From: a virus
Direction: 5' to 3' (one strand)
Virus record (IMG/VR): IMGVR_UViG_3300020436_000032
Location: 1-36,447 of that record
DNA: 36,447 nt
The position numbers were made by a program, and so were the translations under genes. This document shows, piece after piece, positions 19,378-36,204 of this stretch. The stretch's first letter is position 1, and the number at the start of each line of letters is the position of its first letter. The notes beneath the pieces were generated by a model. The model searched no databases and had not been told where the DNA came from. It saw only the letters and a list, made by a program, of their open reading frames with translations.

Positions 19378-21031
19378 TAATGTATATCTTGGGAATCCCA
19401 ATCTCAAGAGAGCGAATGTCCAAATCGAGTTTACGCCAAAACAAATTAAAGAGTATGCTCGATGTATGGAAGACCCGGCACACTTCATCGAAAACTATAT
19501 CAAGATAGTAAGTATTGATGAAGGACTTGTACCATTTCAACTCTATCCTTTTCAAAGAGACATGGTACAAACCTTTCATACCAATCGTTTCTCCATCTGC
19601 AAACTTCCAAGACAGTCTGGTAAATCTACAACGATTATAGCTTATCTATTGCACTATTGTTTGTTCAATTCTTCAGTCAATGTAGCAATTCTTGCAAACA
19701 AGGCCGCAGTTGCAAGGGATCTCTTAGGAAGGTTACAACTCGCATATGAGCATCTACCAAAGTGGTTGCAACAAGGGGTTATGTCTTGGAACAAGGGTTC
19801 CCTTGAACTTGAAAATGGCTCCAAGATTCTTGCAAGTGCAACATCCTCAAGTGCAGTCAGGGGTGGTTCTTATAACATCATCTTTCTTGATGAGTTTGCA
19901 TATGTTCCAAACAATATCGCAGAACAGTTCTTCAGTTCAGTCTATCCTACAATTTCTTCAGGTAAAACATCCAAGGTGATGATGGTAAGTACTCCACACG
20001 GAATGAATATGTTTTACAAAATGTGGAATGATGCAGAGAATGGTAGAAACTCCTATGTTCCTATTGAAGTTCATTGGAGTGAGGTGCCAGGCCGAGATGA
20101 AAAATGGAAACAAGAAACCATCAAAAATACCAGTGAACAACAGTTCAACGTGGAGTTTGAATGTGAGTTCTTGGGGTCTGTAAACACCCTCATACATCCT
20201 TCAAAACTAAAGGCATTGTCCCATAATGAGCCAATTCAAGAAAATGCAGGACTAAAAGTATACGAAAAACCTAGAGAAGATTCTGGTTATGTTCTTGTTG
20301 TTGATGTTTCTAGAGGATTGACTAGTGATTATTCTGCATTTATGGTGATGGATGTCTCAGAAGTTCCATATAGACAAGTTGCAGTTTTTAGAGATAATGA
20401 AATTAAACCTATGAACTTTCCTCAAATTATTCATAAAGTTGCAAATGCATATAATCTTGCATATGTTTTAGTTGAGGTCAATGATATTGGAGCTCAGGTC
20501 GCAGATGCATTACAATTTGATTTGGAGTATGATAATCTAATCATGACTACACAACATGGTAGAAGTGGACAGGTTGCAGGAGGTGGGTTTTCAGGTAAAA
20601 AAGCTCAATTAGGTGTAAGAACAACCAAAGCTCTCAAGAAGGTCGGGTGTTCAAACTTTAAGACCATGTTGGAAGCTGATAAAATATTCATACAAGATTT
20701 TGATACTATCGTAGAACTATCATCTTTCATATCCAAGGGTCAATCATGGGAAGCTGAAGAGGGAACTACAGATGACCTTGCAATGTGTCTAGTATTGTTT
20801 GGATGGTTATCTGACCAGACTTATTTTAAAGAATTAACAAACATGGATATTCGTCAACAACTCTGGAAAGAAAAAGAGGATTTGGTTGAACAGGATATGG
20901 CTCCATTTGGATTTGTTTTGGATGGTGTAACAGATGAGTATGGAGTTCGTATTGGAGAAACAGTGGACGAATATGGTTCTACATGGTCACCCGTGGTACA
21001 GTCACATAAAGAGTGGTTAGAGGATTGGTGA
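19370..21031 (+). CDS. 17: Large terminase subunit gp17 (ATPase/nuclease)
   Basis: This 553-residue protein (T4 gp17 is 610) has an N-terminal ATPase domain with the Walker A-type loop PRQSGKST (about residues 80-87) and Walker B IIFLDEF (about 170-176). The segment VMMVSTPHGMNMFYKMWNDA corresponds to the coupling motif region. The C-terminal RNase H-like nuclease domain shows the metal-binding acidic residues in VLVVDVSRGLTSDYSAF, VLVEVNDIG and TTDDLAMCLVLF. It pumps concatemeric DNA into the prohead through gp20 and cuts it at the end. The start ATG overlaps the preceding gene. Its 3' end overlaps, tail to tail, the minus-strand gene by 15 bases. Confidence 0.97.
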   Translation: MSDNVYLGNPNLKRANVQIEFTPKQIKEYARCMEDPAHFIENYIKIVSIDEGLVPFQLYPFQRDMVQTFHTNRFSICKLPRQSGKSTTIIAYLLHYCLFNSSVNVAILANKAAVARDLLGRLQLAYEHLPKWLQQGVMSWNKGSLELENGSKILASATSSSAVRGGSYNIIFLDEFAYVPNNIAEQFFSSVYPTISSGKTSKVMMVSTPHGMNMFYKMWNDAENGRNSYVPIEVHWSEVPGRDEKWKQETIKNTSEQQFNVEFECEFLGSVNTLIHPSKLKALSHNEPIQENAGLKVYEKPREDSGYVLVVDVSRGLTSDYSAFMVMDVSEVPYRQVAVFRDNEIKPMNFPQIIHKVANAYNLAYVLVEVNDIGAQVADALQFDLEYDNLIMTTQHGRSGQVAGGGFSGKKAQLGVRTTKALKKVGCSNFKTMLEADKIFIQDFDTIVELSSFISKGQSWEAEEGTTDDLAMCLVLFGWLSDQTYFKELTNMDIRQQLWKEKEDLVEQDMAPFGFVLDGVTDEYGVRIGETVDEYGSTWSPVVQSHKEWLEDW

Positions 21032-21319
21032 TAATTCTATATCATTCTTCAATTTAGCATCACAATTCATACATACAACTTTATTCTTCCGTATCCTTTC
21101 CAGAATCGGCTCTCTGAGTTTTTCTCTGAGTCCTTTTGATCTTGAAACGATTCTGATTTCTTTGTTGTCAGGGAAGAAGACCAAGGTACACGTTTCTGAT
21201 TCCCCACAGTGTAAACACGACTTGTCGGCCAAGTATTCGTTAATCCATATATCACGTTTTCTCCTTGCTTTCTTTACACCCTCTTTAATGGTGATTTTAT
21301 ATTTTTCATAGTGGTTCAT
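21017..21319 (-). CDS. Zinc-ribbon protein resembling HNH nuclease without catalytic histidines
   Basis: This is a 100-residue protein and the only convincing minus-strand gene in the window. Residues 35-38 (CLHC) and 83-86 (CMNC) form two C-x2-C pairs suited to a zinc site. The layout YLADKSCLHCGE...LVFF...SRSKGLREKL...NKVVCMNCDAKL matches small phage HNH proteins, where the consensus has C-x2-CG...L-x-FHH...vLC-x-NCH-x3-H. Here the HH position reads FF (48-49) and the last His positions read D and non-His residues, so a nuclease activity is doubtful. It may be a degenerate homing-type gene or a DNA-binding derivative. It overlaps the terminase 3' end by 15 bases. A minus-strand CATAAATA lies just before the start. 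Confidence 0.6.
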   Translation of the reverse strand: MNHYEKYKITIKEGVKKARRKRDIWINEYLADKSCLHCGESETCTLVFFPDNKEIRIVSRSKGLREKLREPILERIRKNKVVCMNCDAKLKNDIELSPIL

Positions 21320-21340
21320 TATAACCTATTTATGTTATAA
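21319..21340 (-). promoter_or_regulatory. Palindrome with minus-strand late-type promoter
   Basis: Read on the minus strand, TTATAAC (21340-21334) and GTTATAA (21325-21319) form a perfect 7-bp inverted repeat around an 8-base loop. The loop nearly coincides with CATAAATA (21334-21327). The right arm ends on the A of the start codon of the minus-strand gene. A gp55 start would fall about 2 bases before the ATG, giving a nearly leaderless mRNA. Alternatively TATAAC with TTGGGG 17 bases upstream could serve as a sigma-70-type promoter. Confidence 0.35.
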
Positions 21341-28136: not shown

Positions 28137-29543
28137 ATGTACAATGCAGAACAACTCCAAGAAAAGTGGCAACCAGTTTTGAATCATCCCGATCTCCCAG
28201 AGATCACAGATTCTTATAAACGAGCTGTTACCTCAGTTATCTTGGAAAACCAAGAGCGTGAACTCAAAGAGACACGTTCAATGTTGGCGGAAGCTGACAT
28301 GGCCGCAAGTGCAGCTGCTACGTTTGACCCAGTATTGATTTCACTGGTTCGCCGTGCAATGCCTAACTTGATGGCTTATGATGTTTGTGGTGTTCAACCA
28401 ATGAGTGGACCTACAGGACTCATCTTTGCCATGAAGGCACGTTATGGTGGTGGAGACACAGGATTCACCGAAGCTCTCTTTGATGGTGCTGAAACTTCTG
28501 CCAGTGGTAAGGGAGGTACAGGAGCTGATGGTAAACAAGTCGGTTCAAACCCAGGCGTTCTTAACGATTCTGGTGCAACTGCTCCTCAATCAGTTGATGG
28601 AGGTTCACCAGACGGAAGTTACAACGTCAGAGCTGGTATGTCTTTATCAGACGCTGAAGGTCTTAGTGGTGGTTCAACTGGTTCAGATGACCCAAGCCCC
28701 CCAACTGGTGATTTCCCAGGCACAAACTCTAGTGCTAAAGCTGGGGAATTTCAGGACATGGGTTTCACCATTGAGAAAACTCAAGTTACTGCAAGGACAC
28801 GTGCCTTGCGTGCTGGGTACACAATGGAACTTGCACAAGACCTGAAAGCTATTCATGGTCTGGATGCAGAATCCGAATTGTCTAACATTCTCTCAACTGA
28901 AATCCTTGCTGAAATCAATCGTGAGGTTGTTCGTTCAATCTACACAGTTGCTAAAAAAGGTGCTCTGGGAGTAACCGCTGACGGAATATTTGACCTTGAT
29001 ACAGATTCAAATGGTCGATGGTCAGTAGAGAAGTTCAAAGGACTTCTTTTCCAAATTGAGCGTGATTGTAACGCTATCGGAATCGAAACACGAAGAGGAA
29101 AAGGTAATATCCTCATGTGTTCAGCTGACGTAGCTTCCGCTCTGTCAATGGCCGGTGTTCTGGACTATGCTCCAAATATGTCAACAAATCTTAATGTTGA
29201 CACAACTGGAAATACTTTTGCCGGAACAATCAATGGACGAATTAAGGTCTATGTTGACCCATATGAGTCTCTTGCAAGTGGTGCCGGAAACTGGTATGTA
29301 GCTGGGTATCGTGGTGCTTCTGCTTATGATGCAGGACTGTTCTACTGCCCATACGTTCCATTGCAAATGGTTCGTGCGATTGGAGAAAATGACTTCCAGC
29401 CAAAAATTGCGTTTAAAACACGTTATGGAATGGCCGAGAATCCATTTGCTCGTTCATCAATCCCAACAAACATTGATGTTAATGCTCTTGCTCCTTCTGC
29501 GAATGTTTACTATCGCAGAGCTCGAGTGAACAATATCATGTAA
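28137..29543 (+). CDS. 23: Major capsid protein gp23
   Basis: This 468-residue protein (T4 gp23 is 521) has the N-terminus MYNAEQLQEKWQPVLNHPDL and conserved blocks TFDPVLISLVRRAMPNLMAY, DVCGVQPMSGPTGLIFAMKA and RAGYTMELAQDLKAIHGLDA. It also has GNILMCSADVASALSMAGVL and GLFYCPYVPLQMVRAIGEND, all standard for T4-type capsid proteins used in marine surveys. A gp21 consensus site L50-A-E52 followed by Ala53 suggests removal of a 52-residue propeptide. A Gly/Ser/Asp-rich loop (about residues 115-200) corresponds to the variable insertion domain. A GGAG site lies six bases before the ATG, and a strong hairpin follows the stop. Confidence 0.98.
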   Translation: MYNAEQLQEKWQPVLNHPDLPEITDSYKRAVTSVILENQERELKETRSMLAEADMAASAAATFDPVLISLVRRAMPNLMAYDVCGVQPMSGPTGLIFAMKARYGGGDTGFTEALFDGAETSASGKGGTGADGKQVGSNPGVLNDSGATAPQSVDGGSPDGSYNVRAGMSLSDAEGLSGGSTGSDDPSPPTGDFPGTNSSAKAGEFQDMGFTIEKTQVTARTRALRAGYTMELAQDLKAIHGLDAESELSNILSTEILAEINREVVRSIYTVAKKGALGVTADGIFDLDTDSNGRWSVEKFKGLLFQIERDCNAIGIETRRGKGNILMCSADVASALSMAGVLDYAPNMSTNLNVDTTGNTFAGTINGRIKVYVDPYESLASGAGNWYVAGYRGASAYDAGLFYCPYVPLQMVRAIGENDFQPKIAFKTRYGMAENPFARSSIPTNIDVNALAPSANVYYRRARVNNIM

Positions 29544-29549
29544 TCACTC

Positions 29550-29576
29550 TTGAGAGGGGATTTATTCCCCTCTCAA
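29550..29576 (+). terminator. Hairpin terminator after gene 23
   Basis: TTGAGAGGGGA (29550-29560) pairs perfectly over 11 bp with TCCCCTCTCAA (29566-29576) around a TTTAT loop, seven bases after the gp23 stop. No clear T-run follows, so it may act partly as an mRNA 3'-end stabiliser. A new late promoter begins six bases downstream. Confidence 0.7.
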
Positions 29577-29582
29577 ATCCCA

Positions 29583-29590
29583 CATAAATA
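29583..29590 (+). promoter_or_regulatory. Late promoter CATAAATA
   Basis: A 7/8 match to TATAAATA immediately downstream of the gene 23 hairpin. The predicted start near 29596 leaves an 11-base leader that still carries AAAGG before the ATG at 29607. The terminator-promoter arrangement supports function. Confidence 0.6.
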
Positions 29591-29606
29591 CTTGTAAAGG
29601 TAAATT

Positions 29607-30182
29607 ATGGCCGATACAAGTCAACCCACAGTTTTAGATTACGCTTCACAAACTACTTGGAGAATTCGTTTCAATCGAATTACTAAGGTCGAATGGTTTT
29701 GTACAAATGTTAATCTTCCAGGCATAAATCTTGGAGAAGCTTTGTTTCCTACTCCACTTTCAGATACCTATGTTGCAGGAGACAAATTGACATTTGAGAC
29801 TCTTAATATAACTTTTCTGGTGGATGAGGAACTACAAAACTATAGAGAACTATGGGATTGGATTGTTGGAGTTGGATTTCCAAAACAACATTCACAGTTT
29901 TCTTCTGTTCTTTCAAGTGGTTCAAATCCTGGCGGAACATTGACTGCATCGAATAGAGTAGGAAATACAGTAACCACTCCAAGTGATAGACCAGTATACG
30001 ATGAAGCTACATTGATAATTTACAATTCAAAAAACATACCGAAAGTTGAAGTAGCATTCAAAGACATTTTTCCAACAAGTCTTTCTGGACTTGCATATGC
30101 TCAAGATGCTACAGATGTTGAATATTTTAAAGCGGACGCTACTTTTAGATTCATGTATTATGAGTTTAAAAATGCCACATAA
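29607..30182 (+). CDS. Second tail-tube-fold protein (gp19-like)
   Basis: This is a 191-residue protein. The blocks WFCTNVNLPGINLGEALFPT, YVAGDKLTFETLNITFLVDE and YRELWDWIVGVGFP follow the tail-tube pattern (LPGI.LGE..., AGD...F.....). They are distinct from gp19 at 23373, with a ten-residue-plus insertion and a different C-terminus (TFRFMYYEFKNAT). In marine T4-like phages the slot after gene 23 usually carries the tail-tip or tail-completion gene (gp3 position). Related tube folds also occur in T4 gp48 and gp54. I interpret it as a tube-related protein, either a tube cap or baseplate-tube junction subunit. Its exact counterpart is uncertain. It has its own late promoter. Confidence 0.7.
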   Translation: MADTSQPTVLDYASQTTWRIRFNRITKVEWFCTNVNLPGINLGEALFPTPLSDTYVAGDKLTFETLNITFLVDEELQNYRELWDWIVGVGFPKQHSQFSSVLSSGSNPGGTLTASNRVGNTVTTPSDRPVYDEATLIIYNSKNIPKVEVAFKDIFPTSLSGLAYAQDATDVEYFKADATFRFMYYEFKNAT

Positions 30183-30185
30183 ATA
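30178..30185 (+). promoter_or_regulatory. Late promoter CATAAATA before uvsY leader
   Basis: A 7/8 match to TATAAATA overlapping the stop codon of the upstream gene. With T4 spacing the first transcribed base is G30191, which is exactly the first base of the closing stem of the structured leader. Confidence 0.6.
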
Positions 30186-30190
30186 ATTTC

Positions 30191-30264
30191 GAGCAGTCCA
30201 GAGTATTATTTTAATAGTCCACTCAAATTATGTGCGACAACATACTTAGGGTGACGGACTGCTC
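30191..30264 (+). ncRNA. Structured 5' leader or small RNA before uvsY
   Basis: GAGCAGTCC (30191-30199) pairs with GGACTGCTC (30256-30264) over 9 bp. Inside, GAGTATTA (30201-30208) pairs with TAAT (30212-30215) and ACTC (30221-30224), leaving a 5-base bulge. TATGT (30229-30233) pairs with ACATA (30240-30244). Together they give a three-way junction of 74 nt. The predicted late start is the first base of the stem, and the uvsY ATG lies 18 bases after the last stem base with no clear ribosome binding site. It could be a regulatory leader or a processed small RNA. It is not a tRNA: there is no T-loop. I know no matching RNA family. Confidence 0.5.
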
Positions 30265-30281
30265 CCTTTGATGAATAGATT

Positions 30282-30716
30282 ATGATATCACTAACTGAAT
30301 TACAACAAAAAGTAAAAAAAGATTTGAAGATTAACGATCTTCAATTAGATGTGGAGTCCCTGAGAATCCCATCATTACATTCCAAATATTTACAACTCCT
30401 TACAGAACATTCTCTTGCATATAAAAAAGCCAGAAATGAACTGTCAATCATCCGTAGAAACAAATGGATATACTACTCTGGAAAGGCTTCAGAGGATGTC
30501 TATAAAGAGAAGGGTGATTTTCCTATAAAACTGAAAACCAAAGACGAGGAAAAAACCTTCATTGAGGCTGATGAAGAGTTTATTGAAAAGAAAAAAGAGG
30601 TGGATTATCACGAATCTATTGTAGATTATCTTCAGGAAATTGTGAAACAGATTGGTAACAGAGGTTTTCAAATAAAAAATGCAATTGATTGGAGAAAATT
30701 TGAATCGGGAATGTAA
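30282..30716 (+). CDS. uvsY: Recombination mediator UvsY
   Basis: This is a 144-residue protein (T4 UvsY is 137). The features LTELQQKVKKDLKIND, HSKYLQLLTEHSLAYKKARN, KWIYYSGKASEDVYKEKG and the C-terminal GNRGFQIKNAIDWRKFESGM match the UvsY family, in which the C-terminal helix ending ...RGFAIKH..D.R.FE.G is highly conserved. UvsY loads the UvsX recombinase onto gp32-coated single-stranded DNA. Upstream is the structured leader. A 4-codon ORF (MNRL) begins at 30271 and its stop overlaps the uvsY ATG. The next gene overlaps by one base. Confidence 0.92.
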   Translation: MISLTELQQKVKKDLKINDLQLDVESLRIPSLHSKYLQLLTEHSLAYKKARNELSIIRRNKWIYYSGKASEDVYKEKGDFPIKLKTKDEEKTFIEADEEFIEKKKEVDYHESIVDYLQEIVKQIGNRGFQIKNAIDWRKFESGM

Positions 30717-31252
30717 TGTTAGGATACGATTATCTGTCTATTCCACTAGATAATAATTTACTCTATACTTGGGCAAAAGAATCTTATAAAGAATTTCAAC
30801 AAGGAACTGCATCTGGAAAAATATCAGAGAAAAGAAACAGTAAAATATCTTTTCTAACTCCAAATGAAAAAATAAGAAAAGAACTGTTCAGACTAGCTAA
30901 TAATGCAAATGAACTTGGTGGATGGGAACTAAAAATAACAAATGTAGAAAATCTTCAATATACAGTTTATGAAAAAGGAGATTACTATAATTGGCACACA
31001 GACGTAGGTAAAAAAAGAAATCCTCTAGGAATAAGAAAATTATCGTTTACAATGATATTGAATGATAATTATGAGGGTGGTACGTTACAGATGGAACATG
31101 GAGCTCCAAATAGTGATGATAGAGTATACAATATTTCTCCAAAGTTAGGAGAAATTATTTGGTTTCCCTCTTACAAATGGCATAGAGTGACATTAGTTAC
31201 AAGTGGAGTAAGACATTCTTTAGTATGTTGGTTTATTGGAGACTATGGTTGA
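30716..31252 (+). CDS. 2-oxoglutarate/Fe(II)-dependent dioxygenase (prolyl-hydroxylase type)
   Basis: This is a 178-residue protein. The double-stranded beta-helix iron site is visible: His94 and Asp96 in YNWHTDVG, His156 in KWHRVT, and the 2-oxoglutarate-binding Arg166 in GVRHSLVCW. Supporting motifs are FTMILNDNYEGGTLQM and GEIIWFPSYKWHRV. The fold matches prolyl-4-hydroxylase-like phage enzymes, which are common in marine myophages and of unknown substrate (protein side chain or nucleic acid base). It lies between uvsY and uvsW with TAATG overlap upstream, and its end overlaps uvsW by 8 bases, so it is co-translated with recombination proteins. The full motif suggests an active enzyme. Confidence 0.88.
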   Translation: MLGYDYLSIPLDNNLLYTWAKESYKEFQQGTASGKISEKRNSKISFLTPNEKIRKELFRLANNANELGGWELKITNVENLQYTVYEKGDYYNWHTDVGKKRNPLGIRKLSFTMILNDNYEGGTLQMEHGAPNSDDRVYNISPKLGEIIWFPSYKWHRVTLVTSGVRHSLVCWFIGDYG

Positions 31253-32681
31253 TATAACTGTTCACAAGAAGAATGATGTATTTCTTCAAGTTGAATGTGA
31301 AAGAAGTATCGCAAGAGAACTCAATGACTTTTTTAGTTATTGGGTTCCTGAAGCAAAATATATGCCTGCGTACAAAAATCGTATGTGGGATGGAAAGATT
31401 AGACTCTTTGATTCTAGAGTCAATCAAATTTATGTAGGTCTTTTAGATTATCTAAGAGACTTTGCAAAGAAAAGAAATTACTCAATACAAGGTGGAGAAT
31501 GGTCAACCCTGGCTACTCACAAAGAAGATGTTGAATCTTTTATCTCAAATCTCAAAATACCTCTACAACCTAGAGACTATCAAGTTGATGCCGTACACCA
31601 TGCAATACGAAATGGCCGTAGCATCCTTGTTAGTCCTACTGCATCTGGTAAATCATTAATTATCTACATTCTCATTCGTTATTTTGAGAAAGTATTTTAC
31701 GATCCAAAATTAACAAACATACTACTTCTAGTTCCTACCACATCTTTAGTCGAACAGATGTACAAAGATTTTAAAGATTATGGATGGAACTCTGAATATT
31801 ATTGCCATCGTATATATGGAGGTAGAGAAAAAGAATCTCCAAAACTCGTATATATCTCTACTTGGCAATCATTGTACCAAATGCCTAAAAATTACTTTGA
31901 TAGATTTGGTGCAATTATAGGTGATGAAGCTCATACCTTCAAGGCAGATTCACTTAAAAAGATTATGCATAAAACTACTAATTGTGAATATAAGTTTGGT
32001 TTTACTGGTACTTTGGATGGATATCAGTGCCACAGACTAGTTCTTGAAGGTCTGTTTGGACCAGTAAAACAGGTTACTACAACCAAACAACTTATTGATA
32101 ATAAACAACTTTCTGATATAAAAGTACATGGAATTGTCTTGACTTATGAGAAAAAAGAGTGTATAATACGTAAATATCATGATGAAATCAGTTATATAAC
32201 TGAATATCCTAAAAGGAATAATTTGATTCGGAATCTAGCGGTGGACCAAAAAGGCAATACTTTGATACTTTTCTCTCTCATCAAACATGGAGAGCAGTTG
32301 TTCAAAATGATAAAGGAGAAGACCAATGATGTACATCTTGTCTATGGTAATACCGATACTGAAACCAGAGAAAATATTAGAGCCATTGCAGAAAGAAACA
32401 CAGGTCACATTATCGTGGCAAGTTTCGGTGTATTCAGTACTGGCATCAACATTAGGAACTTGCATAACATTATTTTCGCTAGTCCTTATAAGTCTCGTAT
32501 TAGAAATCTTCAATCAATAGGTAGGGGGTTACGTTTACATGATAGTAAAGTTGCAGCTAATCTATATGATATTGCTGATAACTTTGAAGGTAAGAATCAT
32601 ACGTTTCGTCACTTTAAGGAACGTATTAAGTTGTATAATGAAGAAGGATTTGATTACAAGTTACATAGGGTACAAATCTAA
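31245..32681 (+). CDS. uvsW: RNA-DNA and DNA helicase UvsW
   Basis: This is a 478-residue protein (T4 UvsW is 503). I choose the ATG at 31245 (MVDITVHKKNDVFLQVECER), because the family starts with a short strand of this type followed by NRMWDGKIRLFD; an upstream TTG at 31236 is less likely. Superfamily 2 motifs: SPTASGKS (about 130-137), GDEAHTFK with DEAH (about 227-230), GFTGTL, and SIGRGLRLHDS. UvsW unwinds R-loops and branched DNA, shutting off origin-dependent replication and assisting recombination. It overlaps the oxygenase gene by 8 bases. Confidence 0.95.
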   Translation: MVDITVHKKNDVFLQVECERSIARELNDFFSYWVPEAKYMPAYKNRMWDGKIRLFDSRVNQIYVGLLDYLRDFAKKRNYSIQGGEWSTLATHKEDVESFISNLKIPLQPRDYQVDAVHHAIRNGRSILVSPTASGKSLIIYILIRYFEKVFYDPKLTNILLLVPTTSLVEQMYKDFKDYGWNSEYYCHRIYGGREKESPKLVYISTWQSLYQMPKNYFDRFGAIIGDEAHTFKADSLKKIMHKTTNCEYKFGFTGTLDGYQCHRLVLEGLFGPVKQVTTTKQLIDNKQLSDIKVHGIVLTYEKKECIIRKYHDEISYITEYPKRNNLIRNLAVDQKGNTLILFSLIKHGEQLFKMIKEKTNDVHLVYGNTDTETRENIRAIAERNTGHIIVASFGVFSTGINIRNLHNIIFASPYKSRIRNLQSIGRGLRLHDSKVAANLYDIADNFEGKNHTFRHFKERIKLYNEEGFDYKLHRVQI

Positions 32682-32743
32682 CTTGAATCCAGACATACTT
32701 ATTATACACAAAAAAACTCAACAGTCAAGTCAAAAATATTGTC

Positions 32744-32772
32744 TTGACATTTTCAAAAATAAAGGTTACAAT
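32744..32772 (+). promoter_or_regulatory. Sigma-70-type promoter candidate at gene 55 start
   Basis: TTGACA (32744-32749) and TACAAT (32767-32772) are separated by exactly 17 bases, a near-perfect housekeeping promoter. The -10 element overlaps the gp55 ATG, so transcription would start near 32779, inside gene 55. Such RNA could serve gene 33291 onwards (47, 46, def), or a shorter gp55 from Met17. The 89-base gap before gp55 holds no gene. Confidence 0.4.
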
Positions 32773-33289
32773 GGCGACTAAAGAACATTATGTAGATAAT
32801 AAAGAGTTCCTTGCAGCGATGATTCAGTGGAAGGATTCCATTAGTGAAGCTGAGTCAGAAGGAGAAGACCCACCACCCGTGACGGAGTATATTGGAGAGT
32901 GTTTCTATAAAATAGCTACACACCTATCATATAGACCTAATTTTATCAACTATACCTATCGTGAAGAAATGATAGGTGATGGTATAGAAAACTGTATTCA
33001 ATATGCTAAAAATTTTGACCCAGAAAAATCAAAGAATCCATTTGCATATTTTACACAAATAATTTATTACGCATTTTTAAGAAGAATATCAAAAGAAAAG
33101 AAACAACAATCAATCAAACAAAAGATGATTGATAACGACACACTCAAAACCCATGAAACAATGGATTTTGATGATGAGGTGTACGATAATACGTACATAG
33201 ACTTTCTCAGGGACAATTTACCTCAAGAAGAGGTTCCCAAAAGAAAGAAAAAAAATAAACGTGGTATAGAACATTTCATTGAGGAATAG
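32771..33289 (+). CDS. 55: Late-transcription sigma factor gp55
   Basis: This 172-residue protein (T4 gp55 is 185) has its start at the ATG at 32771, with AAAGG seven bases before it; an in-frame TTG further upstream is rejected. The segment MIGDGIENCIQYAKNFDPEK followed by NPFAYFTQIIYYAFLRRISK corresponds to the sigma region 2-like helix conserved in gp55. An acidic N-terminal stretch and a basic C-terminal tail (PKRKKKNKRGIEHFIEE) complete it. gp55 with host RNA polymerase reads TATAAATA promoters such as those at 9532, 23908 and 26901 in this window. The C-terminal segment corresponds to the clamp-interacting end in T4. Confidence 0.93.
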   Translation: MATKEHYVDNKEFLAAMIQWKDSISEAESEGEDPPPVTEYIGECFYKIATHLSYRPNFINYTYREEMIGDGIENCIQYAKNFDPEKSKNPFAYFTQIIYYAFLRRISKEKKQQSIKQKMIDNDTLKTHETMDFDDEVYDNTYIDFLRDNLPQEEVPKRKKKNKRGIEHFIEE

Positions 33290-33290
33290 T

Positions 33291-33464
33291 ATGACTAAAT
33301 TTGAAGAATATGTTGATAAGGTTGAAACCTTAATAAATGAGTACACTAAGGGACTCGCTCCAGATGAACTTAGAGCTATAAACAGGTCTATCGAAAACTC
33401 TAGTGCTGGGTCTGGGAAGATTTGGTTGGAAGATTTCGTGGACAAACAAATAAACAAAAAATGA
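33291..33464 (+). CDS. Small protein of unknown function between genes 55 and 47
   Basis: This 57-residue protein starts with the ATG at 33291, one base after the gp55 stop, and ends with ATGA overlapping gene 47. The sequence begins MTKFEEYVDKVETLINEYTK and continues GLAPDELRAINRSIENSS, IWLEDFVDKQINKK; it is mostly helical and charged. I do not recognise a family. Its position in a coupled series suggests a small accessory to late transcription or recombination. It could be an adaptor for gp46/47 or gp55, but nothing in the sequence decides this. Confidence 0.6.
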   Translation: MTKFEEYVDKVETLINEYTKGLAPDELRAINRSIENSSAGSGKIWLEDFVDKQINKK

Positions 33465-34534
33465 AAAAACTTGTAATAGTTACTGATACCCATTTTGGAG
33501 CTCGAAATGATAGTCAGGTTTTTAGTGATTATTTTTTTGAGTTCTATCAGAATCAATTCTTTCCGTATATCATAGAAAACTCTGAAGACATATGTGGTGT
33601 TATGCATCTTGGAGATTGTCTAGATCGTAGAAAGTTTATTAACTACAAAACAGCTATGGACTTTCGTGAGAAGTTTATAGGTGGTCTTATGAGTACATGG
33701 CTACCATGTCACTTTATAGTGGGTAATCATGACATATATTACAAGAACACACTTTCGGTAAACTGTTATAATGAATTACCTATACCTAGAAGTGAGGCTT
33801 GTTGGTACGTGTATGACAAACCACAAGTAATCAATATTGAGAAACAGGATATTGCAATCATTCCTTGGATAACTTCCGAGAACTATGCAGATACCACTAA
33901 GGTTCTCAAGTCTGGAGCTCAGATAGGTATGGGTCATTTGGAAATCAAAGGATTTGAGATGCACCAAGGAGTGGTGTCTGATCATGGATTTGAAAAAGAA
34001 CTATTCAAAAACTTTGAAATAGTTTTGAGTGGTCATTATCACAAGAGGTCTAACGATGGTCAAATTTATTATCTTGGATGTCCATATGAAATGACATGGG
34101 CAGATTGTGGTGACCCAAAAGGATTTCATACCTTTGATTTAGAAACTAGGGAATTGGAGTTCATACCAAACCAGTATACCATGTTTGAGAAGATTTATTA
34201 CGATGACTCAAAGATGGATTATGTCAACTCTGACATATCTAAATACGACAAAAAATTTGTCAAAATATTTGTGGAAAATCGCCAAGATTATTTTTCATTT
34301 GACAAATATCTAGATAGACTGTATAAAGAAATCTCAGTACATGACTTAAAAATAGTAGAAGATTTTTCAGACCTGAGCGCCGATTTTGTTCATGATGATG
34401 TTGTGGAAGGCGCTCAGGATACTCTGTCTCTACTGGATAAGTACGTGGATGAGATTGAAACTATACTAGACAAAGAAAGAATCAAATCAAAACTTAAATC
34501 ACTTTACGTTGAAGCTGGCGATTTAGAAATATGA
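33461..34534 (+). CDS. 47: Recombination endonuclease subunit gp47 (Mre11-like)
   Basis: This is a 357-residue protein (T4 gp47 is 339). The start is the ATG at 33461, overlapping the previous stop as ATGA; the longer reading upstream is not used because metallophosphoesterases begin with the strand KLVIVTDTHFGAR. Phosphoesterase motifs: DTHFGAR (8-14), HLGDCLDRR, FIVGNHDIYYKN, and VLSGHYHKRS. With gp46 it forms the nuclease-ATPase complex that resects DNA ends for recombination-dependent replication. It overlaps gene 46 by four bases. Confidence 0.95.
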   Translation: MKKLVIVTDTHFGARNDSQVFSDYFFEFYQNQFFPYIIENSEDICGVMHLGDCLDRRKFINYKTAMDFREKFIGGLMSTWLPCHFIVGNHDIYYKNTLSVNCYNELPIPRSEACWYVYDKPQVINIEKQDIAIIPWITSENYADTTKVLKSGAQIGMGHLEIKGFEMHQGVVSDHGFEKELFKNFEIVLSGHYHKRSNDGQIYYLGCPYEMTWADCGDPKGFHTFDLETRELEFIPNQYTMFEKIYYDDSKMDYVNSDISKYDKKFVKIFVENRQDYFSFDKYLDRLYKEISVHDLKIVEDFSDLSADFVHDDVVEGAQDTLSLLDKYVDEIETILDKERIKSKLKSLYVEAGDLEI

Positions 34535-36204
34535 TACACTTTAAAAAGGTTCGTTGGAAGAATTTTATTTCAACAGGAAACCAATTTACAGAGGTCATTC
34601 TAGATAGGTCTAAAACAACATTGATTATAGGAGAGAATGGAGCTGGTAAATCCACTGTCCTTGATGCATTGTGTTTTGTTCTGTTTGGAAAACCTTATAG
34701 ACCCATCAAGAAAAATCAATTAGTAAATTCTATCAATTCTTCTGGAACTGAAGTTGAAGTAGAGTTTCAGATTGGAACGAATGAATTTTTGGTTCGTAGA
34801 GGTGTCAAACCAAATCTCTTTGAGATTATTAGGAATGGTGAACCTATGGACCAAGAAGCTCATTCCAGAGATTTCCAGAAAATTCTGGAAGAACAAATAC
34901 TCAAGTTGAATTATAAGACATTTACTCAAGTGGTAATCTTGGGTTCTAGTTGTTTTATTCCGTTCATGCAGTTATCTACAACTCATCGTAGGGAAGTGGT
35001 CGAAGATATTCTTGATATCAAAGTTTTCTCCTTGATGAATGGATTACTTAAACTGAAGTATAAAGAAATACAATCAGAGGTAGATTCTCTTAAAATTACA
35101 GAGGGATTGTATAAGACAGAAAGAGACTTAGAAGAACATCATCTAGATAAAATAGAAAAAGGTGCAGAGATTAAACTCAAGAAACTAGAAGAAGATAGAA
35201 TAAAATACTCTGATGACTTAAATCAGAGACAAATGAAGAATATAGAGCTCTCTAAAGAAATTCAAGAACTAACTAGTGCTACCAAAGATCATTCAAAACT
35301 TAACACACTCAAAACACAAATAGGAACCAAAAAAGCTGAGGTAGATAAACAAAGAGATTTCTTTACGAAGAACGATGACTGTCCAGTATGCGAACAACCT
35401 ATCAAGAAATCATTTAAGAAACTTAGAAATTCAGAACTTTTAGACCAATCTAAAAAGTATGAAGATGCAATGGTAGAGATGGATAGTGAAATAGTTAGAC
35501 TGAATGATATTCTTAAAGATATGCAAAAGAAGTCTAGTATTATGCAACATAATATTGCAGAGGTTAATGCATTATCTAAATTGATACAAAAATGCATTGA
35601 TGAAATGGAAGAACTAGAAGAGGCAAAAGAAGAACAAGATAGTATGAAAAAACGAATTGAAGAAATGAATACAAATCTTCAAGAGGTTGATTTCAGACTC
35701 AAGGAACTAAAAGAAGAAAATTTTTATCTTGACATTTGCAAAAATTTACTGCATGATACAGGTATAAAGTCGAAGATTATCAAACAATATCTTCCTGTGA
35801 TGAATCAGACCATTCAGAAATATCTGACTGTTCTGGACTTCTATGTAAACTTTCATCTCAATGACCAGTTTGAAGAAACGATAAAGTCTAGGTATAGAGA
35901 TGATTTTTCTTATTCATCATTTTCTGAGGGTGAGAAAATGCGTATCGATTTGGCATTGATGTTTACATGGAGAGAGGTTGCAAGGTTGAAGAATTCAACG
36001 AATACCAATCTACTTATCATGGATGAAGTATTTGATTCCAGTTTAGATGCAGCTGGTACTGATGACTTTCTGAAGATTCTCAATGAACTTGAGAGTCAAA
36101 ACATCTTTGTGATTTCTCACAAAGGCGATGTTCTGTTTGACAAGTTTCATAGCATCTTGAAGTTTGAAAAACAGAATAACTTTAGCAAAATAGTAGAACC
36201 ATGA
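34531..36204 (+). CDS. 46: Recombination endonuclease subunit gp46 (Rad50-like)
   Basis: This is a 557-residue protein (T4 gp46 is 560). Walker A GENGAGKST (about 34-42) and the ABC signature FSEGEKMRIDLAL (about 464-476) are present, with Walker B LLIMDEVFDSSLD near residue 493. The zinc hook CPVC (284-287) lies at the tip of two coiled-coil arms (ERDLEEHHLDKIEKGAEIKL, EMEELEEAKEEQDSMKKRIE). It acts with gp47 in end resection. The gene overlaps the gp47 stop and the next gene's ATG, both as ATGA. Confidence 0.96.
   Translation: MIHFKKVRWKNFISTGNQFTEVILDRSKTTLIIGENGAGKSTVLDALCFVLFGKPYRPIKKNQLVNSINSSGTEVEVEFQIGTNEFLVRRGVKPNLFEIIRNGEPMDQEAHSRDFQKILEEQILKLNYKTFTQVVILGSSCFIPFMQLSTTHRREVVEDILDIKVFSLMNGLLKLKYKEIQSEVDSLKITEGLYKTERDLEEHHLDKIEKGAEIKLKKLEEDRIKYSDDLNQRQMKNIELSKEIQELTSATKDHSKLNTLKTQIGTKKAEVDKQRDFFTKNDDCPVCEQPIKKSFKKLRNSELLDQSKKYEDAMVEMDSEIVRLNDILKDMQKKSSIMQHNIAEVNALSKLIQKCIDEMEELEEAKEEQDSMKKRIEEMNTNLQEVDFRLKELKEENFYLDICKNLLHDTGIKSKIIKQYLPVMNQTIQKYLTVLDFYVNFHLNDQFEETIKSRYRDDFSYSSFSEGEKMRIDLALMFTWREVARLKNSTNTNLLIMDEVFDSSLDAAGTDDFLKILNELESQNIFVISHKGDVLFDKFHSILKFEKQNNFSKIVEP

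Follow-up and report, generated by a model that had tools for sequence, protein, structure and literature searches.

What occupies the short gap between the tail tube gene and uvsY in this marine phage, and does it serve uvsY or act separately? In the window, i.e., the whole 36,447-nucleotide stretch analyzed (IMG/VR record IMGVR_UViG_3300020436_000032), the upstream neighbour of the gap encodes a gp19-like tail tube protein (29607..30182, plus strand; phrog_45, 3.1e-32). The gene on its other side, also on the plus strand, encodes the recombination mediator UvsY (30282..30716; phrog_231, 5.7e-44; PF11056, 2.9e-33) and has no Shine-Dalgarno sequence. The genes that follow on the same strand (30716..36204) encode a 2OG-Fe(II) oxygenase, a UvsW-like helicase, a Metallophos protein (gp47-like) and an SMC/AAA protein (gp46-like), the names gp46 and gp47 being ones that we infer from domains and gene order. 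These genes are a recombination block, and the RNA described here stands at its head.

The initial annotation claimed a late promoter box before uvsY, and the predicted T4-type box CATAAATA is indeed present on the plus strand at 30178-30185, where it includes the TAA stop codon of the tail tube gene and lies 5 nt before the helix P1 discussed below. In cyanophage S-PM2, NATAAATA has been reported as a late-promoter motif (PMC2984593). The same box CATAAATA was also observed elsewhere in the window, on the minus strand at about 21327-21334, just upstream of a 100-aa minus-strand ORF (21017-21319) that carries two CxxC pairs and lies amid plus-strand late genes. With its ATG some 10-15 nt from the box, the late message of this ORF would be nearly leaderless; a Pfam match was looked for and none was found.

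The perfect 9-bp closing stem proposed earlier holds on inspection: GAGCAGTCC (30191..30199, plus strand) pairs with GGACTGCTC (30256..30264, plus strand) without a mismatch, and the first base of this helix, P1, is the predicted +1. P1 closes a structured RNA of 74 nt (30191..30264, plus strand), which we call family A, or uvsY-upstream RNA; in marine relatives of T4 such RNAs measure about 75-90 bases. The predicted folding energy in the window is -27.7 kcal/mol against a shuffle mean of -12.3 (z -5.81), and no fold as good arose among 200 dinucleotide shuffles. The MFE fold also contains, on the same strand, helix P2 (GAGUAUU ... AAUAGUC; 30201..30219) and helix P3 (CACUC ... GGGUG; 30220..30253), the latter with an apical hairpin. 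P2 belongs to the window's clade and not to the second clade of the family, and its paired variants in relatives are UAUUA/UAAUA, UAUUU/AAAUA, GAUUU/AAAUC and UAUUUU/AAAAUA. The most conserved stretch of the RNA, UGUGCGACAACAUA (30231..30244, plus strand; family form UGUGNGACAAYAUA), forms the apical hairpin of P3, and a G-Y pair (GC or GU) is maintained in it in 45/45 sequences. The interior as a whole shows strong conservation of GUCCAC and GUGNGACAA; in the window, GUCCAC lies at 30217..30222 (plus strand) and could pair with GUGNGAC at 30232-30238 if a single variable base is bulged out.

Relatives of UvsY in uncultivated viral contigs yielded loci L001-L008, which have the same leader as the window, and pattern scans of IMG/VR together with a second UvsY similarity search enlarged the set of leaders. 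A loose motif scan was rejected, its matches being mostly chance occurrences inside genes. Family A splits into two clades, clade one comprising the window and its relatives (23 distinct leaders), and both were placed in a joint alignment, A4, of 45 distinct sequences. Pairs 1-9 of P1 have zero unpaired cells in these 45 sequences; one extraction accepted only helices of 6 bp or more, and the lists compiled without a helix criterion show P1 in all members. Both sides have changed in 12 of 14 P1 pairs of this alignment, with replacements of C-G by A-U (16 sequences), C-G by U-A and G-C by A-U. The initial annotation had named absent conservation of pairing in related genomes as the observation that would count against it. 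When this was examined over the whole structure, 92.9% of cells were paired, and 13 pairs were changed on both sides, against 6.1 in shuffles, none of 500 of which scored as high; these counts include related sequences, which are not independent events. Sliding the partner by 1-3 columns as a control lowered pairing from 93% to 30-40%. Additionally, sense-strand U.G pairs are common in P1, which argues for selection on the sense RNA and not on a DNA palindrome. Judged by the compensating changes in P1, family A is a new structured RNA family in marine T4-like phages.

The three-way junction described earlier stands for the MFE fold of the window and for its clade, but not for the family: in other relatives P1 is lengthened to 12-14 bp and the interior is rearranged, and in clade two AAC mostly takes the place of the 5′ GAC in the GAC/GUC helix. 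We thus rejected it as the family structure.

The position of the helix relative to the late box is nearly invariant. In clade one, NNTAAATA lies exactly 5 nt before P1 in 23/23 distinct members, and the five bases in between vary; in clade two, P1 starts 0-2 nt later than this spacing. In T4-type late promoters, the 8-bp box precedes the start by about one helical turn (PMC2988020). Together with this geometry, the fixed spacing between box and P1 predicts that the first transcribed base coincides with the start of P1, from which we infer that transcription would begin at 30191 in the window. The sequence of P1 is free to change while its start at the predicted +1 stays.

No described RNA family of this shape was known to the initial annotation, and our searches agree, as no Rfam family reached threshold. 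With Rfam 15 at the gathering cut-off, there were 0 matches in the window and 0 in ten relatives covering both RNA classes of this site (the second class is described below), and the best match in a permissive search of the window had an E-value of 3.6, which is chance level. A known Rfam family, a tRNA or a tmRNA was accordingly rejected as the identity of 30191-30264. No description of a structured RNA before uvsY was found in the literature searched, which consisted mostly of papers available without subscription. With our model of the family, R1, the window gives a single match (58.7 bits, E 6.8e-10), being a member by construction, and further copies were absent from 90 other loci, mostly uvsY loci. 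Isolated phages gave only chance matches, and no copy was found in four isolate genomes in a search that had no positive control. In one case, L402 (NHCZ02000023.1), a phage contig carrying the RNA and uvsY had been binned in a bacterial MAG, ‘bacterium TMED46’; its leader agrees with that of contig L266.

Other marine uvsY lineages carry a differently folded RNA class between gp19 and uvsY, at loci L041-L079, L201-L235, L483-L516, L531, L325 and L404. The closing helices of this second class vary in sequence (GGATGAG/CTCATCC, GGTGGTGGAT/ATCCACCACC, GGTGGGGTA/TACCCCACC, GGGTAAGGTAC/GTACCTTACCC, GGATGGGGTG/TACCCCATCC and TGTGCAGA/TCTGCACA), and the helix was the selection criterion for most members, so that the pairing of all of them is partly by construction. 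Family B, which was found by its interior motif and is less helix-selected, shows one compensated pair. The members share an interior of the CUUGAACA type, with CUUG and CAAG often paired (variants CCUUG/CAAGG, UCUUG/CAAGA and ACUUG/CAAGU) and this pairing broken in some members. A Shine-Dalgarno switch, in which CCUU would pair with AAGG, was considered for this class and rejected, since it fails in L325 and L404, where the helix is ACUUG/CAAGU. Where TATAAATA is clear, P1 of the second class starts at the late +1 or at most 1 base from it; L483-L516 mostly have TATATAAT at the position expected for TATAAATA, possibly a variant late box. No second-class RNA was present in 61 of 87 distinct uvsY upstream regions compared. 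That another RNA class recurs in this gap suggests a need for such an RNA at the site itself.

The interior of family A allows two mutually exclusive sets of pairings, P2/P3 on the one hand and GUCCAC with GUGNGAC on the other. Both of the latter motifs are invariant and mutually complementary in 45/45 sequences; members from the motif scans had been selected for these letters, which are also present in the members that UvsY similarity brought in (L001-L008, L285-L296). Thermodynamically, P2 and P3 are preferred in clade one, and two hairpins with loops AGUC and GACA are preferred in most of clade two, the GUCCAC:GUGNGAC helix being less stable than the optimum by a mean of 4.7 kcal/mol in clade one and 8.2 kcal/mol in clade two. 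As a core helix this pairing was rejected, because it never varies, is partly scan-selected and lies that far above the optimum. A 3-bp loop contact, GUC:GAC, is possible in the family A interior.

The two clades differ in how the RNA relates to uvsY. The distance from the end of P1 to the uvsY start codon is 13-22 nt in nearly all leaders of clade one, which leaves no space for another promoter between the RNA and uvsY; a sigma-70-type promoter was sought at 29500-30400 of the window and was not found. At least four consecutive T residues directly follow P1 in 21/27 clade-two cases vs 5/22 in clade one (Fisher p 0.0002), and in the window P1 is followed by CCTTTG, so that there is no U-tract, nor is there a terminator call. 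Between the RNA and uvsY, clade two has TTGACW-N17-TAnnAT in 23/26 loci, several of them with a perfect 12/12 consensus; weak single cases do not exceed shuffles, and the spacing and position recur, but in loci that are related and not independent. Perfect TTGACA-17-TATAAT sequences were observed about 20-42 nt before the uvsY start, 3′ of the RNA, e.g., in L380, L381, L385 and L399. The window's clade lacks this promoter, so early uvsY expression may differ between the clades. With a U-tract and a uvsY promoter of its own, clade two is where the RNA and the uvsY message look separable, a pattern that, as far as sequence can tell, speaks more for a late non-coding RNA of its own than for a leader controlling only the translation of uvsY. 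The stable phage small RNA envisaged in the initial annotation thus draws support from the U-tract and separate sigma-70-type promoter of clade two, but the window has neither. On the other hand, uvsY directly follows the RNA wherever the locus extends far enough downstream, in a set of stretches that includes repeated contigs, and this placement of the copies is compatible with a cis role.

Regulation of uvsY translation by the parts proposed earlier found no support. The ribosome binding site of uvsY is weak, as had been noted, with no Shine-Dalgarno sequence and a duplex of +0.4 kcal/mol, compared with up to -12.1 for other genes of the window. The start region of uvsY lies outside the folded domain, and its predicted accessibility is 0.55 with the domain and 0.55 without it; P1 and its domain are also predicted to fold on their own in the read-through RNA. 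A 4-codon ORF, ATGAATAGATTATGA (ATG AAT AGA TTA TGA; 30271..30285, plus strand), does overlap the uvsY ATG as described but is conserved only in the window and its nearest relatives of the L003/L005 type; we do not regard it as functional and rejected it as a regulator. The missing Shine-Dalgarno sequence, the unchanged accessibility and the lack of conservation of the ORF argue against a simple translational leader. Direct repeats around TTATTATGACATTATTGCGACA upstream of uvsY were seen in L155, L258 and L272, where they duplicate its start region; two or more ATGs thereby become candidates, and a GCGACA there echoes the RNA loop.

The role that we consider the most likely, if with somewhat less than even confidence, is that of a stable late non-coding small RNA with an interior that binds either a protein or another RNA. 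Built on what was computed, i.e., a fold that is conserved, where it lies, which sequences belong to its family and, for clade two, a promoter and a U-tract, this reading supplies a transcript start, a mode of release and a partner in conditional terms. The structured non-coding RNA would be made from the late promoter, starting at 30191, and pairing of its first and last bases in the strong P1 would close both ends, as in many stable small RNAs. The conserved interior (GUCCAC and UGUGNGACAAYAUA) would be presented for recognition. In clade two, the RNA would be released by termination at P1 and the U-tract, uvsY being served by its own downstream sigma-70-type promoter. In the window's clade, where this promoter is absent and the U-tract mostly so, the late uvsY message would begin with the RNA; any release would come about by partial termination or by a cut within the 17 AU-rich nt that precede the start codon. 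This reading is weakened by the absence of a U-tract and of a terminator call in the window and by a search for antisense targets among the translation starts of the window, in which none was found (best duplex p 0.45 vs shuffles). It is also weakened by the location of all copies with enough flanking sequence directly upstream of uvsY, for which a cis-acting leader is the better explanation.

That such a leader, remaining part of the late uvsY transcript, regulates the recombination operon uvsY-uvsW is possible but doubtful, as is the route by which it would do so, namely the binding of a small molecule or of a protein from phage or host, with an effect on termination, decay or translation. 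The invariable position before uvsY speaks for it, as do the distance of mostly 13-22 nt between the clade-one P1 and the start codon, a conserved interior with two exclusive pairings, and the clade-two P1 with its U-tract, which could be an attenuator. Nevertheless, there is no Shine-Dalgarno sequence to hide, and the domain leaves the accessibility of the start unaffected; the alternative GUCCAC helix pays the 4.7 (clade one) and 8.2 (clade two) kcal/mol penalties given above; and the predicted clade-two uvsY promoter would give an mRNA without the RNA.

Less is asked of the RNA if only its paired first base matters, blocking 5′-end-dependent decay of the late uvsY message. E. coli mRNAs stabilized by 5′-terminal stem-loops offer a precedent, as far as the cited part of the source goes (references 92-95 in PMC3997798), and P1 is found at +1 in unrelated RNA classes with its sequence free to change. 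We nevertheless hold such a stabilizer to be unlikely, since it leaves the conserved interior and the clade-two uvsY promoter and U-tract unexplained.

The T4 replication origin oriF is located at the uvsY promoter. Although oriF needs an R-loop transcript, UvsW unwinds such R-loops (PMC3016281) and UvsW is encoded downstream here, a DNA-level element or primer RNA of a similar origin is highly improbable, given that oriF uses a MotA middle promoter and this locus has a late box with no sigma-70-type promoter at 29500-30400, that the GC skew keeps its sign across the window, on which ground an origin by GC skew was rejected, and that the compensating changes include sense-strand G.U pairs, pointing to RNA folding.

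Small structured RNAs are known from marine T4-like cyanophage genomes, among them PhotoRC-II, wcaG, manA, the glutamine riboswitch/glnA, Downstream-peptide and CfrI, most of which were first found by comparative genomics of marine metagenomes (PMC2864571; PMC9964418). Family A is likewise small, structured and found in marine T4-like phages, but the known RNAs adjoin metabolic and photosynthesis genes (PMC2864571), whereas family A adjoins uvsY and a predicted late promoter. In having an RNA structure by a T4-type late promoter upstream of a gene, it is like the leaders of T4 gene e, soc and I-TevI, in which an inhibitory helix loses its 5′ strand when transcription begins at the late start, so that the ribosome site becomes free (PMC3014915). 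Here, in contrast, the predicted late start at the first base of P1 would leave the helix complete, and there is no ribosome site inside it. A helix upstream of the start codon is likewise found in the split ribosome-binding sites of T4 genes 25 and 38, where it stands between the Shine-Dalgarno sequence and the AUG and brings the distant Shine-Dalgarno sequence close (PMC3014915); unlike these, uvsY is not preceded by a Shine-Dalgarno sequence, and the helix begins at the predicted transcript start. Like T4 RNAC and RNAD, family A is a small phage RNA with no role assigned, but those RNAs come from the tRNA region and family A would come from the predicted late promoter before uvsY.

A broader proposal, which we put forward only tentatively and consider rather unlikely as a whole, is that, in marine T4-like phages, late trans-acting small RNAs have a hot spot in the gp19-uvsY gap, with at least two unrelated classes, each with a helix from the first transcribed base, acting on host or phage targets. 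T4 is a textbook phage, but according to a 2010 review no T4 riboswitch or trans-acting small RNA had been functionally characterized, and relatives of T4 were suggested as a place to look (PMC3014915). If the hot-spot proposal is true, the T4 superfamily would possess a trans-acting small RNA with a function, of which none had been characterized by the time of that review. Family A itself offers a definite candidate, backed by covariation, where the recombination operon begins; its 5′ end is predicted to the base, and its two clades provide a testable split between a leader-like form and one that resembles a separate transcript.
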